Assembly (NCBI GenBank): GCA_024279275.1
Contig: JAJRRS010000006.1
Location: 18,903 to 82,902 of the forward strand
Reading direction: 5' to 3'
DNA length: 64,000 bases
DNA from: Planctomycetota bacterium
GTDB taxonomy: Bacteria; Planctomycetota; Phycisphaerae; Phycisphaerales; Phycisphaeraceae
The notes under the pieces are model-generated. The model made no database searches, was not told the DNA's origin, and saw only the letters and a list, made by a program, of their open reading frames with translations. Positions 8,919 through 60,438 of this stretch are shown piece by piece (position 1 is the first letter of the stretch; each line of letters starts with the position of its first letter). Both the position numbers and the translations under genes were made by a program.

Positions 8919-9093
8919 TCTCACCGCAGAGAACACTGAGGTCGCAAAGCAAGACTAAAGAAGGTGGACAGGATGACAGGATGGTCAGGATCAAGCACGT
9001 CGCCCCCGGCTCGTCATTCTTATCCTCCCCATCCTGTCATCCTGTCAAACTCTTCGCCTCTCTTCTCTGCGTTCTCTGTGTCCTCTGTGTTGA
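8919..9093. repeat. Nested inverted repeat (CACAGAG-like outer arms, GACAGGATG inner arms)
   Basis: ctcaccgcagagaacactgagg / ctctgtgtcctctgtgttga outside; ggacaggatgacaggatgg / ccatcctgtcatcctgtc inside. Confidence 0.75.
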
Positions 9094-36303: not shown

Positions 36304-36494
36304 ATTTCAACACAGAGACACAGAGGCACAGAGCAAGGCAAAGAATGTTGACAGGATGACAGGATGACAGGATGACAGGATGGACGGGATCAAGCAGAGC
36401 ACACTCGGCATGCCGATCTTATCCTCTCCATCCTGTCATCCTGTCAACTCTTCTCCTGCCTTCTCTGTGGCTCTGTGTCTCTGTGGTGAAATTA
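36304..36494. repeat. Nested inverted repeat (CACAGAG outer arms, GACAGGATG inner arms)
   Basis: ATTTCAACACAGAGACACAGAGGCACAGAG ... CTCTGTGGCTCTGTGTCTCTGTGGTGAAAT outside; TTGACAGGATGACAGGATG ... CATCCTGTCATCCTGTCAA inside; CGGCATGCCG core. Confidence 0.9.
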
Positions 36495-36889: not shown

Positions 36890-36942
36890 ACCTTACACCC
36901 CAGACCCTAGACCCCAGACCCAAATCCCCTACAATCCCGCCC

Positions 36943-37470
36943 ATGAACCTGATCCTCTTTGGCTACCGCGGCTGTGGCAAGACCACGCTCGGCAAAAAAC
37001 TCGCCGCCCAGCTCTGGAAAGACTTTGTTGATGTTGATCAGCAGGTCTGCAAACGCTTTGACAACCGCAGCATCGCTGACATCTGGGAAACCGACGGCGA
37101 ACCCGCCTTCCGTGCAGCCGAAGCCCAGGTCGCCGCCGAACTTATCCAGCGTAAAAACCACGTCATTGCTTTGGGCGGCGGCACGCTTATGCACCCCGAC
37201 GCCCGAAAGGCCATCAAAGACGCACCCGACACCAAACGTATCTATTTAGAGTGCGCCCCCGAGGAACTGGATCGCCGCATCCACGCCGACGCTAACACCA
37301 CGACAGCTCGCCCCGATCTAACGACCACCGGGGGGGGGGGGCTGGAAGAAATCAAACAAGTCCTCACCGAACGCGACCCCATTTACCGTGAAGTCGCCGA
37401 CCACGTCTTCGACGTCACCCACACCAACCCCGACGAAGCGGCTCGCTTCATCGTGGCGCGGTTTTTGTAA
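36943..37470 (+). CDS. aroK: Shikimate kinase
   Basis: ILFGYRGCGKTTLGKKLA, DVDQQVCKRFDNRSIADIWETDGEPAFR, VIALGGGTL, contains a 12-G tract. Confidence 0.85.
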   Translation: MNLILFGYRGCGKTTLGKKLAAQLWKDFVDVDQQVCKRFDNRSIADIWETDGEPAFRAAEAQVAAELIQRKNHVIALGGGTLMHPDARKAIKDAPDTKRIYLECAPEELDRRIHADANTTTARPDLTTTGGGGLEEIKQVLTERDPIYREVADHVFDVTHTNPDEAARFIVARFL

Positions 37471-37478
37471 AAAGATAA

Positions 37479-37658
37479 ACACCGCGAAGGCGCAAAGATC
37501 GCGAAGTATGAAGGATGTATCCGCAGATTGCGCAGATGACGCAGATTAAGAATGGCAATCAGCCGGCGAAACGGCTTCTTCCAAATCTGCGTCATCTGCG
37601 CAATCTGCGGATACCTCTGTTCTTATCCTTCTTCGCGCTCTTCGCGCCTTCGCGGTGT
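37479..37658. repeat. Nested inverted repeat (CGCGAAG outer arms, 31-bp perfect GCAGATT inner arms)
   Basis: 37479-37506/37631-37658 outer (26 of 28); 37517-37547/37584-37614 inner (31 of 31); AGCCG-CGGCT core hairpin. Confidence 0.95.
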
Positions 37659-37884
37659 AACTATCTGCCACCCTCCGCGCATAAAAAAACCGAGCGAGGT
37701 TGAATAATGTATGGGGAAAATAACGGTTAATCGAGATTAATCTCTTCGCCTCACTCGGCGGTACAAACATCAGGTTGTGCGATCACTTGGCTGCGGGCCT
37801 CCTTTCCTTGTCTATCCATCTATATTATCGACTTCAAGACGGCACGAGTCAAGAATATTTTATGAATGAAGTGCCCAAAGCTGC

Positions 37885-40140
37885 TTAGGGCGTCGGTAGG
37901 GCGTACAACGTGGCACTTCGCCCAACTGTTTCTATAGGCTTCCACCCGCTGTCGACCAGCTTTAGTACGCCTTGGATCGTGACATCGACATCGTGGCCGT
38001 AGGTTCGGTGAAGGCGATAAAGCTCAGCCCAGTGAACCCAGACATGTGTGATGCCCTTGGACCGCAGTAACGAGGCCACCTGTTTGGGGTCGCCCCCCGA
38101 CGCACGGATCACCCGCCCCAACGGTGCCTCATCGAACGCGGTGGCGTAAACAAATGGCCGAGTCAGATACAACAGACCCGAATTATCTGCGACCAGCAGC
38201 GTCTTGCTTCCCGCAGGCAGACGATTAATCGGATGGGCCGTCGGATCGCCCGGCGATGTCACGATCGGCGCATTGATCGCCACCGATATCGGTACCGGCA
38301 ACGGCTCGCCGGTCTGCGGGTCCGTCACCGTCCGAGTCTGCCCGACCATTGTCGTGTAACTGATCAGCCCGACCATCACCACCATCGCAGACCCAACCAT
38401 CGGCCCGACAGTGGGGGCCTTGCGCTTCGTCACCTCCACCAGCCGACCATACCCCAGCCCCGCGATCACGCACGCCGGCAAAATCGTCGGCAGCAAAAAA
38501 CGACTCTGCATATGCGTTGCAAACATCCAGAACAACACCTGCACCCCCAGCATCAAACCCAATCCCAACGCAACTCGCCGTGTCTCTCTCTGATTCAATA
38601 ACAACACACCCCCAACCGCGACCACGATCCACAACGCCGGCACCCCGCCCTCACGATCAAACCGCGCCATGTTCTGCGTCTCGCGCAGCGTCGGCCTTCC
38701 ACCAATCGCCCCGTAACCCGTATTAAATAACCACTGCCGACCCAGTGCATCGAGCTTGCCCTCTGCCTTAGGCGACAACCCGTGCGCGGTGTTCCAACGC
38801 TCAACCAGTGTTTCGTCCCAGTGCCCCGCGCCCAAACGCTCCGCCGCAAACGGGAATACCGGGTTGCCTGTCGCCACATAGTTACGCACCAGGTACGGGC
38901 TGAGCATCAACACGCCCGCCATCGCAGCGATCGCCGCGAGTTGCACGTTCCCAAACCACCCACGTCGGCAAAAAGTTTCTACGTCATAGCCCCCGCCGGG
39001 GGGCGGGGGTTTCGCGCCCGTCGTGTCTACATTATTAGAAGTCATCGATCGCGGGGAACCAACCCGGCCCTTCCGGGCCGGGCTATGGGGGGCGTGTGTC
39101 CATGGATTTACCCCAAGCAATAAGATCAACCCCACCGGGACCGCGACCATCATCCCGGCCGTCAGTTTCGCCAGCGTCGCGGCACCGACCAGCAACCCGA
39201 CCGCGACCGCACCGCCGCGTGTGGTTCCCGTCTCGCCCAACAAGATCAGCATCGCCGCCGCGCCAAACGCCATCATCCCCATCTCGTTGTACGCCATCGA
39301 CCCGGTGATCGTCACCCAGGGCAACGCCAGGAATAACCCCGCCGCGCCCACACCCACGGATGTGGAAGTCCTCAGCGCCACCAGTTTCCCAATCGCCGCC
39401 GCCGCCAAGAGTGCAAGCGTCACATGAAATAACTGACAGGTATAAATCCCATCCACCACCGACCCGCTGAGCGTTCCGATCAACAGATAACCGCCCTCTA
39501 TCAGGCTCGGCAAAAAGCTATACACATTGTGTTCAAGCCCCGACATCCCCCCCAACATCATCCACTCGCGCGGCAGTTGCAGGTGGTAGCTCGTCACGTC
39601 ATACCCAAACGCCTCCACCCGCCAAAGCGCCCCCGGCGGACAGCATGCCGCCACCAACAATAACGCCAGCCCCGGGGAGAGCAGTAACACGCTCCAAGGG
39701 ACCACGAGCTTACGCCGTCCGCGCAGCGCGTCGTCTTTAGAAGGTAAAAGCTTCAATAGATTCAATAAACACCCGGCCCCAAACACCGCGATCGCCCCGT
39801 TCTGTGTCAGCAGCCCCGCCCACGCCACCAGCCAGTTCACTGTTAGCAACGTCGCCATCCCCAACGCCAATTCTTCAACCATGCAGCCGCGCCGATCGCG
39901 CATCAACAACACACGCAACGCAAACCCATACCCCGCCGCTCCCAGCCACAACGCAGTCAGCACCGGCAACGACCCCGCAACGACTCCAAATACCGCAAAG
40001 AACGCGCCCGGTTCCTGTGCAGCAATCCCGTTCTGTGTAATGACCCACAGAAACAGCACAAACAACGCAACACCGGCTGCGATCACAGCCGGATTACCCG
40101 CACGCGCACCTGTTTGAGGTTGTGGTATCGATTTCGTCAC
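37885..40140 (-). CDS. Polytopic membrane glycosyltransferase-like protein (ArnT/PMT-like architecture)
   Basis: Multiple TM helices; SPYLVRNYVATGNPVFPF; C-terminal soluble domain. Confidence 0.65.
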   Translation of the reverse strand: MTKSIPQPQTGARAGNPAVIAAGVALFVLFLWVITQNGIAAQEPGAFFAVFGVVAGSLPVLTALWLGAAGYGFALRVLLMRDRRGCMVEELALGMATLLTVNWLVAWAGLLTQNGAIAVFGAGCLLNLLKLLPSKDDALRGRRKLVVPWSVLLLSPGLALLLVAACCPPGALWRVEAFGYDVTSYHLQLPREWMMLGGMSGLEHNVYSFLPSLIEGGYLLIGTLSGSVVDGIYTCQLFHVTLALLAAAAIGKLVALRTSTSVGVGAAGLFLALPWVTITGSMAYNEMGMMAFGAAAMLILLGETGTTRGGAVAVGLLVGAATLAKLTAGMMVAVPVGLILLLGVNPWTHAPHSPARKGRVGSPRSMTSNNVDTTGAKPPPPGGGYDVETFCRRGWFGNVQLAAIAAMAGVLMLSPYLVRNYVATGNPVFPFAAERLGAGHWDETLVERWNTAHGLSPKAEGKLDALGRQWLFNTGYGAIGGRPTLRETQNMARFDREGGVPALWIVVAVGGVLLLNQRETRRVALGLGLMLGVQVLFWMFATHMQSRFLLPTILPACVIAGLGYGRLVEVTKRKAPTVGPMVGSAMVVMVGLISYTTMVGQTRTVTDPQTGEPLPVPISVAINAPIVTSPGDPTAHPINRLPAGSKTLLVADNSGLLYLTRPFVYATAFDEAPLGRVIRASGGDPKQVASLLRSKGITHVWVHWAELYRLHRTYGHDVDVTIQGVLKLVDSGWKPIETVGRSATLYALPTP
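38990..39082. repeat. Pair of C5-GC-family hairpins inside a CDS
   Basis: CCCCCGCC-GGGG-GGCGGGGG (38990-39009) and CCCGGCCC-TTCC-GGGCCGGG (39063-39082), flanked by CATAGC / GCTATG. Confidence 0.8.
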
Positions 40141-45360: not shown

Positions 45361-46863
45361 ATGCCCGACCTCTGGGAGCAAACCCGCCAGGACCACCTAC
45401 GCGCCGCCCAACCGCTGGCCGTGCGCATGCGCCCACGCACCCTCGATGAGTTCGCAGGTCAGTCACACTTTCTGGGCGAAGGCAAACTCCTGCGCCGCAT
45501 GCTCCAGGCCGACCGCCTCACCAGCGTTATTTTCTACGGCCCACCCGGCACCGGGAAAACCACACTCGCCGAACTCATTGCCGCCTACACCAAGCGACAC
45601 TTCGATCGCGCTAATGCGGCAGCCATCGGTGTCAAAGACGTCCGCGACATCCTCCAACACGCTCGCAAACGCCTCGAAAACGACGGCCGACGCACCATCT
45701 TCTTCCTCGACGAGATCCACCGCTTCAACCGCGCACAACAAGACGTCCTGCTCGGCGACGTCGAGCGGGGCATCATCACACTCATCGGCGCGACCACGGA
45801 GAACCCCTTCTTCGCCATCAACTCTCCCCTGGTCAGCCGGTCGCAGGTCTTCCAGTTCCAGCCGTTGGACGAAGGCGCCATCACCGACCTCATCAACCAC
45901 GCCCTCCAGGACAAAGATCGCGGCTACGGCCAACAAAACATCCAACTGGACGACGACGCCCTCGCCCACTGGGCCACCGCCTGCGACGGCGACGCCCGCC
46001 GCGCGCTGACCGCATTAGAAATCGCGGTGTTATCTTCCATCCCTCAGCCCCCGGCTTTGCCGGGGGATCACACCACGGTTGACTCATCCCCCGGCAAAGC
46101 CGAGGGCTATGGGACGGAAAGTAATAGTTCCCCCGAACCCCGAATCCACATCACCCTCAGTATCGCCGAACAATCCATCCAGCAAAAAGCCCCGGTCTAC
46201 GACGGCACGGGTGATGGCCATTACGACGCCGCCTCCGCGCTCATCAAGTCCATGCGCGGCAGCGACCCCGACGCCGCGATTTACTGGCTTGCAAAAATGC
46301 TCCACGCTGGTGAAGACCCGATGTTCATCGCCCGCCGTATCGCCATCCTCGCCAGTGAAGACGTCGGCAACGCTGACCCCCAGGCCATCCAGATCGCCGC
46401 CGCCGCCTACGACCTGACCCACCGCATCGGCCTGCCCGAGTGCAAGTACGCACTCGCCCAGGCGGTTACCTACCTCGCCACCGCTCCAAAGAGTAACGCC
46501 GCCACACTCGCCATCGCGGAAGCGATGTCCGATGTCCACCACAACCGCACACTCCCGATCCCCAAATCCCTACGCGACGCTCATTACAGCGGTGCCAAGC
46601 AACTCGGCCACGGCCAGGGATATAAGTACGCCCACGACAGCGACACCGGCTTCGTCGATCAGGACTACCTGGGCATCGACAAAACCTTCTACCACCCAAC
46701 CGACCGCGGCTATGAAAAAACCATCCAAAAATACATGCAATGGATCGACGCCCAACGGTCAAAGCCACGCATGACATCCGCTTCTAATACCCCGGCCCAG
46801 ACGGCTTCACCCGCCGTCAAATCCCCCCTCGTTGGCGAGCCAAACCCAATCGTGCCGAAATAA
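45361..46863 (+). CDS. rarA: Replication-associated recombination protein A (RarA/MgsA AAA ATPase)
   Basis: MRPRTLDEFAGQSHFLG, FYGPPGTGKTTLAELIA, FFLDEIHRFNRAQQDVLL, ALYWLAKML..ASEDVGNADPQA. Confidence 0.92.
   Translation: MPDLWEQTRQDHLRAAQPLAVRMRPRTLDEFAGQSHFLGEGKLLRRMLQADRLTSVIFYGPPGTGKTTLAELIAAYTKRHFDRANAAAIGVKDVRDILQHARKRLENDGRRTIFFLDEIHRFNRAQQDVLLGDVERGIITLIGATTENPFFAINSPLVSRSQVFQFQPLDEGAITDLINHALQDKDRGYGQQNIQLDDDALAHWATACDGDARRALTALEIAVLSSIPQPPALPGDHTTVDSSPGKAEGYGTESNSSPEPRIHITLSIAEQSIQQKAPVYDGTGDGHYDAASALIKSMRGSDPDAAIYWLAKMLHAGEDPMFIARRIAILASEDVGNADPQAIQIAAAAYDLTHRIGLPECKYALAQAVTYLATAPKSNAATLAIAEAMSDVHHNRTLPIPKSLRDAHYSGAKQLGHGQGYKYAHDSDTGFVDQDYLGIDKTFYHPTDRGYEKTIQKYMQWIDAQRSKPRMTSASNTPAQTASPAVKSPLVGEPNPIVPK
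46048..46106. repeat. Inverted pair of C5-GC hairpins inside rarA
   Basis: CCCCCGGC-TTT-GCCGGGGG (46048-46066) and CCCCCGGC-AAA-GCCGAGGG (46088-46106) in opposite orientation. Confidence 0.85.
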
Positions 46864-56624: not shown

Positions 56625-56785
56625 CCGCGAAGAGCGAGAAGCAAGCTAAGATAATAGCCGCAAATGAACGCGAATAAACGCAAATGCAGAGATGGTATTT
56701 AGAGCCGATCTCATTCGCGTTTATCCGTGTTCATTTGCGGACATCTTCTTCGCCTTGCTTCGCGATCTTCTCGCCTTCGCGGTAA
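56621..56785. repeat. Nested inverted repeat (CGCGAAGnGCGAGAAG outer arms, CGCAAATGAACGCGAATAAACG inner arms)
   Basis: 56658-56686 vs 56712-56740 complementary at 26 of 29 positions; outer TTAGCCGCGAAGAGCGAGAAGCAAG / CTTGCTTCGCGATCTTCTCGCCTTCGCGGTAA. Confidence 0.9.
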
Positions 56786-59934: not shown

Positions 59935-60294
59935 ATGCGCCTTCGGACAAGAGCGATTATTAGATGCGTGATTTGTTTACTGGCGTATGTGGTGATGGCA
60001 GTCCTTACCCCCGCATTCATCATGTGGGCTGCCTTGTTTATTCAAACTGCCAGAGGTGTAGAGGGGCCGATGGATTTCGACCCTGTTATTTGGAATTCCA
60101 TCTGGATCGGATTGGGGGCTGGACTGGTTGTGTTGCTTATTGGAATTGCACAATCGGGAAGGCTTTGGCGGCGATTGATCCGTGAAGCTGAAGGTTGCTG
60201 CCCTTCGTGCGGGTACAATCTTCGAGGTAATCCATCTGCCCATTCATGCCCAGAGTGTGGGGCGAAGCAATCCCCCGGCGAAGCCGGGGGATGA
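59935..60294 (+). CDS. Small membrane protein with C-terminal zinc ribbon
   Basis: Two TM segments; CCPSCGYNLRGNPSAHSCPECG; paralogous to 62898-63281. Confidence 0.7.
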   Translation: MRLRTRAIIRCVICLLAYVVMAVLTPAFIMWAALFIQTARGVEGPMDFDPVIWNSIWIGLGAGLVVLLIGIAQSGRLWRRLIREAEGCCPSCGYNLRGNPSAHSCPECGAKQSPGEAGG

Positions 60295-60352
60295 TGGACC
60301 CCAGCGCTACGTTCACACAATCTTCCCCCTCAGCCCCCGGCTCTGCCGGGAG
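60272..60352. repeat. Pair of C5-GC hairpins
   Basis: CCCCCGGC-GAA-GCCGGGGG (60272-60290) and CCCCCGGC-TCT-GCCGGGAG (60334-60352). Confidence 0.85.
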
Positions 60353-60438
60353 ATCAGATTCACTACGTATCCGTTTGCCGTAGTGCGATAATCCTGTAAA
60401 CCCACTTCACCCGAAAACGTCGAACCATACGGAAAAAT

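Follow-up and report, generated by a model that had tools for sequence, protein, structure and literature searches.

The nested palindrome between aroK and its convergent neighbour is probably made up of two gene-less, nuclease-dependent small mobile palindromes, one lying within the loop of the other, whose spread would be driven by a nuclease of the GxxExxY family. It was found in a genome of the same genus as the Phycisphaeraceae isolate OFTM29, and it suggests that many bacterial phyla share a family of tiny mobile elements not described before.

Anatomy of the nested palindrome and its repeated unit

The element occupies 37479-37658 of the window, by which we mean the whole stretch of 64,000 nucleotides that was analysed, and all its arms lie where the original prediction had placed them (Table 1). 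The inner cores are identical at 31 of 31 positions (the longer inner arms, 39 nt, at 92%), the outer arms match at 29 of 33 positions, and the arm period is 9 bp. The folding energy is -89.8 kcal/mol, compared with -35.3 +/- 3.4 in dinucleotide shuffles (z = -15.9; 0/200 shuffles as good), and the nested hairpin is thus far above chance expectation. A scan of the element against Rfam gave nothing but microRNA-like matches below the gathering score, the best being mir-5892 with 49 bits against the required 82; this model matches 37516-37615 on both strands (49 and 46 bits), and the microRNA family may itself derive from such a bacterial palindrome. The right neighbour had been labelled a membrane glycosyltransferase, a name left unsupported by the Pfam search, in which the 751-aa protein had no match.

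Table 1. Features in and around the nested palindrome (positions in the window), with the GxxExxY genes on other contigs of the same genome
Feature	Position	Strand	Details
Outer arms, core	37479-37506/37631-37658		28 nt; extend to 33 nt at 88%
Outer left arm	37479-37511	+	AG-type units CGCGAAG, CGCAAAG, CGCGAAG; same arms at a Sphingomonas parapaucimobilis GxxExxY gene
Outer right arm	37626-37658	-	
Inner left arm	37514-37552	+	three CGCAGAT units (AT type) at a period of 9; 31-nt core without mismatch, 37517-37547
Inner right arm	37579-37617	-	core 37584-37614
Inner loop	37553-37578		26 nt; small stem AGCCG/CGGCT at 37561-37565/37572-37576
aroK (shikimate kinase), left neighbour	36943-37470	+	PF01202, E 1.5e-36
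Conserved membrane-like protein (751 aa), right neighbour	37885-40140	-	convergent with aroK
Second nested element	36304-36492		CACAGAG outer arms, GACAGGAT inner arms
GxxExxY gene	contig C17		TCCGCAGATT arms, those of the inner GCAGAT stem
GxxExxY gene	contig C157		CACAGAG arms
GxxExxY gene	contig C96		AACACAGATGA arms
GxxExxY gene	contig C43		CACGGAG arms

The arms are inward-pointing arrays of the 7-bp unit CRCNRAK at a spacing of 8-10 bp. In 33 well-kept copies, diversity is 0.06 at the unit positions and 0.48 at the three spacer positions, the variation within units falling chiefly at the G/A position of C-R-C, and of the inverted pairs built from such units, 51 (not all of them independent) face inward and none outward. 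The spacer positions are paired in 19, 15 and 15 of the 33 copies, which is about chance. As far as the sequences tell, the conserved entity is therefore the inverted CRCNRAK array, a repeated word rather than a stem, and since the word is kept while the spacers vary, the pattern is the one expected of protein recognition sites. It had been proposed that the perfect inner match implies active maintenance; as a rule this is unsupported, pairing-driven maintenance being rejected in that role on the chance-level pairing of the spacers beside conserved unit bases. The perfect stem is in fact unusual, identical 27-nt arms occurring in only 4 of 33 comparable copies of the same genome, and it is the tidy extreme of a continuum.

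Two features would define what we propose to call a GxxExxY palindrome, namely inward inverted CRCNRAK arrays with a period of 8-10 and the occurrence of the same arms around a GxxExxY gene somewhere. The nested element has both, its inner arms recurring around the gene on contig C17 and its outer arms in Sphingomonas parapaucimobilis. With no nuclease gene of its own in the 26-nt loop, it is a gene-less copy.

Related palindromes in the same genome

A search of the genome (3.76 Mb in 200 contigs) with a 201-nt query spanning the element gave 90 matches, and our censuses cover about 0.9 Mb of it. The 20 stretches inspected are modular palindromes, whose arms consist of tandem units in varied nestings, the unit types being CGCAGAT, CGCGAAG, CACAGAG, CACGGAG, GACAGGAT and AACGCTGATAA. 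Among 39 GCAGAT hairpins, 23 are solo, 15 are nested within outer arms of the CGCGAAG, CACAGAG or CACGGAG type, and one is weak; these stretches were partly picked by their similarity to the nested query, and the share of nested copies does not represent the genome as a whole. Outer arms are also of the CGCAGAG type and inner palindromes of the GACAGGAT and GATGAACGCAGAT types, and at least six distinct outer/inner combinations exist. The view that the outer stem and the inner one come from distinct families is upheld by these combinations and by the assignment of the two arm types to two GxxExxY nuclease clades. The related impression of one palindrome inserted into another is supported by the behaviour of the inner GCAGAT unit, which stands alone or within various outer arms; in these stretches, inner elements without outer ones were found, and the unit is not always intact. 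The complete nested unit has also been multiplied as a whole (contigs C199, C146 and C128).

Inner arms mostly start no more than about 20 nt from the outer arms on both sides, as would be expected if a newcomer enters close to the loop. In this genome the AG palindrome is the outer one in 14/14 nested pairs, which do not amount to 14 events, the nested copies being partly one amplified unit in stretches chosen by similarity. A fixed order of AG outside AT was rejected, as it is reversed at two loci elsewhere (L091 and L165). Blind sampling of contigs C1-C41 (476 kb) yielded about six strong periodic palindromes, which makes the window a rich spot. It carries further periodic palindromes of the CRCNRAK class at 8962-9059 and 56645-56753, with GACAGGAT and CGCAAATGAA units, and a non-periodic hairpin family, CCCTCAGCCCCCGGC...GCCGGGGG, at 46030-46124 and 60270-60354, which was also seen at L048 and L049. 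A relative of the latter hairpin lies within ATACGGAT...ATCCGTAT outer arms at the aroK site of the related genome G001.

GxxExxY genes between the arms

When 85,462 species genomes were scanned for the pattern, the matches listed came from Acidobacteriota, Verrucomicrobiota, Lentisphaerota, Planctomycetota, Pseudomonadota, Bacteroidota, Chloroflexota, Poribacteria, Stahlbacteria, Hydrogenedentota and others, including the isolates Oligosphaera ethanolica DSM 24202 and Neolewinella aquimaris DSM 105137. In many cases a GCGAAG match to this wide pattern was simply the end of a gene (Ala-Lys-stop), and only arms verified later were counted; the GCAGAT hairpins are genuine in many of the listed genomes. 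At two loci (L107 and L150) the left arm leads straight into a GxxExxY gene, and for this reason loci of the family (TIGR04256) were collected for flank tests, first from 41 relatives and 32 hairpin-bearing genomes, together comprising the relatives plus about 12 phyla. Almost all loci of this first set are enclosed by matching periodic arms. Taking the best inverted repeat between the 300-bp flanks, with a score of >=18 as strong and >=14 as a looser cut-off, strong arms were found at 46/58 loci of the first set, compared with 7/227 swapped flanks, 0/58 shuffled ones and 0/28 for a neighbour-protein control gene. In samples not selected for hairpins, the looser cut-off was reached by 23/29 loci in Bacteroidota and 22/26 in Planctomycetota (swapped flanks 24/215), and the pooled count at >=18 is 77/113 genes from about 15 phyla, with 9/442 swapped flanks. 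The anatomy of these palindromes and their association with the nuclease are hence well supported.

In the window's own genome, 4/4 GxxExxY genes are enclosed by such arms, and on contig C17 the reading frame extends across the right arm, with its stop where the arm ends. A GxxExxY gene with CGCGAAG arms is absent from this genome, and the outer arm type is thus orphaned there. About a quarter of the GxxExxY genes lack clear arms, several of these being fused into long ORFs (L208 and L209). The genes were present in 60/119 Bacteroidota and 96/196 Planctomycetota genomes sampled, in up to 14 copies each; one GxxExxY query against phages returned zero matches. At L185, L188 and L189, in genomes from two different families, the gap from groEL to dnaJ holds a GxxExxY element, either as an old insertion or at a preferred site.

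The protein has about 125 residues, among which the catalytic E, D, E-x-K and Q are invariant, and the genes in the loops match PF13366 (PDDEXK_3) with E of about 1e-40. Built from four sequences, a structure model (pLDDT 69.5, pTM 0.63) has as its nearest folds Cas4 SSO0001, RecE, archaeal Holliday junction resolvase (Hjc) and lambda exonuclease, with a best PDB E of 4e-3, and this moderate-confidence model supports a predicted PD-(D/E)XK nuclease fold.

A tree built from 112 GxxExxY domains requires 3 changes of AG or AT arm type (86 typed) and 26 of host phylum, much as in the first 58 domains (3 vs 23). A single clade with GCAGATT-like arms includes Planctomycetota, Gammaproteobacteria, Acidobacteriota, Methylomirabilota, Hydrogenedentota, Stahlbacteria, Lentisphaerota and Deltaproteobacteria, and several clades coexist in one genome, each with its own arm type. 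Arm type thus tracks nuclease clade and not host phylum, which argues that gene and arms travel together between phyla. The number of GxxExxY genes in 41 related genomes correlates with that of AG arrays (rho 0.79).

Empty sites bear on the same question. Between fabD and fabG, Sphingomonas parapaucimobilis has CGCGAAG arms, those of the outer stem of the nested element, around a GxxExxY gene that starts with its ATG immediately after the arm, whereas Sphingomonas paeninsulae has 30 bp only. The C96 site holds the element in G000, G001 and G004, a 29-bp gap in G003 and a different palindrome in G002, and the nested element is absent from the aroK site of G001. The compared sites are strongly diverged and no clean target-site duplication is readable there; judged from their alternative states, arms and gene are shown to be present together or missing together, as one unit.

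Proposed nuclease-driven spread, its alternatives and known systems

The full element consists of an inverted CRCNRAK array around a GxxExxY PD-(D/E)XK nuclease gene of about 125 codons, each nuclease clade being paired with its own unit type. We infer that the nuclease binds its cognate arrays, at which it would also cut the DNA, and that transposition and maintenance depend on it: repair would copy the palindrome, gene included or not, to new intergenic places and into the loops of other palindromes, and gene-less copies would spread in trans, like REPs with RAYT. As a nuclease by itself cannot join DNA ends, this scheme calls for host repair. A cognate transposase (DDE, HUH, serine or tyrosine) was not found, the genes in the loops being PF13366. 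For the wider reading we see about an even chance, namely that there is a transposase-free class of mobile element across bacteria, in which a lone PD-(D/E)XK nuclease spreads palindromes of its own recognition words, clade-specific vocabularies have crossed phyla, a parallel system exists with a four-helix-bundle protein and nests are insertions into loops. The placement of GxxExxY genes within cognate palindromes gives these genes a testable function, would account for a large stock of unexplained intergenic hairpins, and provides a nuclease that carries its recognition words in the ends of its own element.

PD-(D/E)XK homing nucleases are known, and with this precedent the palindromes could be older, immobile host repeats, into which a GxxExxY homing nuclease is copied after cutting a cognate gene-less palindrome. 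The arms common to gene-bearing and gene-less copies would supply the homology needed by repair; however, arm words follow the nuclease clade rather than the host across phyla, empty sites are without any palindrome, and gene-less copies outnumber genes many-fold, at positions that differ between species, which makes this course of events unlikely. It is less likely still that the palindrome serves as both operator and boundary for a GxxExxY gene whose role lies elsewhere (in repair, defence or addiction), with gene-less copies as decayed remnants spread by ordinary recombination. The invariant nuclease residues are retained and a profile search gave a weak Cas4-like match, but that search did not find a defence family, and the gene-less copies, numerous, with units well kept in both arms and clean short loops, are unlike the product of random decay.

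A very strong stem between convergent genes also recalls a bidirectional terminator or mRNA stabiliser, selected for stem formation. We consider this rather improbable, as the spacers pair at about chance level and many copies enclose a nuclease gene, where the stem cannot terminate a neighbour. The terminator between convergent genes was rejected for want of enrichment, convergent gaps holding 10/32 palindromes vs 138/654 gaps (p = 0.19) and tandem ones 20/32; a scan for a stem running directly into Ts gave, at the outer left edge, nothing beyond short stems of 5 pairs, whose minus-strand tail is weak and whose count does not exceed that in shuffles. Least credible of all, and mostly refuted, is that these palindromes are REP/REPINs which resident RAYT enzymes (Y1, PF01797) move. 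The palindromes are dispersed and extragenic, and the genome does have seven Y1 genes above the cut-off and one below it, yet paired CRCNRAK units occur within 1.5 kb at 0/8 Y1 loci, which excludes RAYT ownership; these loci have other palindromes, GC-rich and non-periodic. In 37479-37658, the GTAG/CTAC tag is absent, and CGTC/GACG occurs only inside the arm arrays.

A close parallel to the proposed nuclease-driven palindromes is REP/REPIN-RAYT, in which many dispersed intergenic palindromes per genome accompany few cognate enzyme genes, flanked by the same palindromes, and gene-less copies are probably mobilised in trans (PMC3733652, PMC3116915, PMC8266576). GxxExxY palindromes share the dispersed copies and the few enzyme genes with the same flanks, and differ in that the enzyme is a PD-(D/E)XK rather than a Y1 HUH protein, the arms are arrays of 7-bp units without the GTAG/CGTC tag, copies nest, and identical words turn up across about 15 phyla. 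They resemble MITEs and insertion sequences in their inverted ends, the enzyme gene between them and the short gene-less versions, although their ends consist of units repeated in arrays. By profile, the genes in the loops belong to the GxxExxY family (TIGR04256 / PF13366 PDDEXK_3) and, as in PD-(D/E)XK homing endonucleases and junction resolvases, encode a small single-domain nuclease, with a predicted fold near Hjc, Cas4 and RecE; in contrast to the homing endonucleases, there is no intron or intein host and the gene sits within the palindrome loop. In the open-access papers searched, the association of GxxExxY genes with palindromes is not described, the family is named in passing only, a stated function was not found, and a search by palindrome sequence words had no matches.

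Periodic inverted arrays also surround genes of the four-helix-bundle 23S rRNA intervening-sequence protein (TIGR02436; L245-L274), 20/30 of them at >=18. Their different vocabulary (GGGTCTG, GGCATTA, GTTTCTA) and mostly 7-bp period suggest a separate, parallel system. An array in this type of vocabulary, CCAGACCCTAGACCCCAGACCC, lies at 36900-36921, just upstream of aroK.

Two further observations concern the neighbourhood of the nested element. On the minus strand, 37675-37850 gave nothing at the gathering score in Rfam; it is about 90% identical among three genomes of the same genus (83% in G011), carries a sigma-70-like promoter (TTGACT-17-GATAAT), the motif AAAGGAGG and the end CCTCGCTCGG-TTTTTTT, and has the look of a gene for a small RNA or leader peptide not described so far. 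The aroK coding sequence contains a run of 12 G at 37330-37341, possibly a slippage site or an assembly error.
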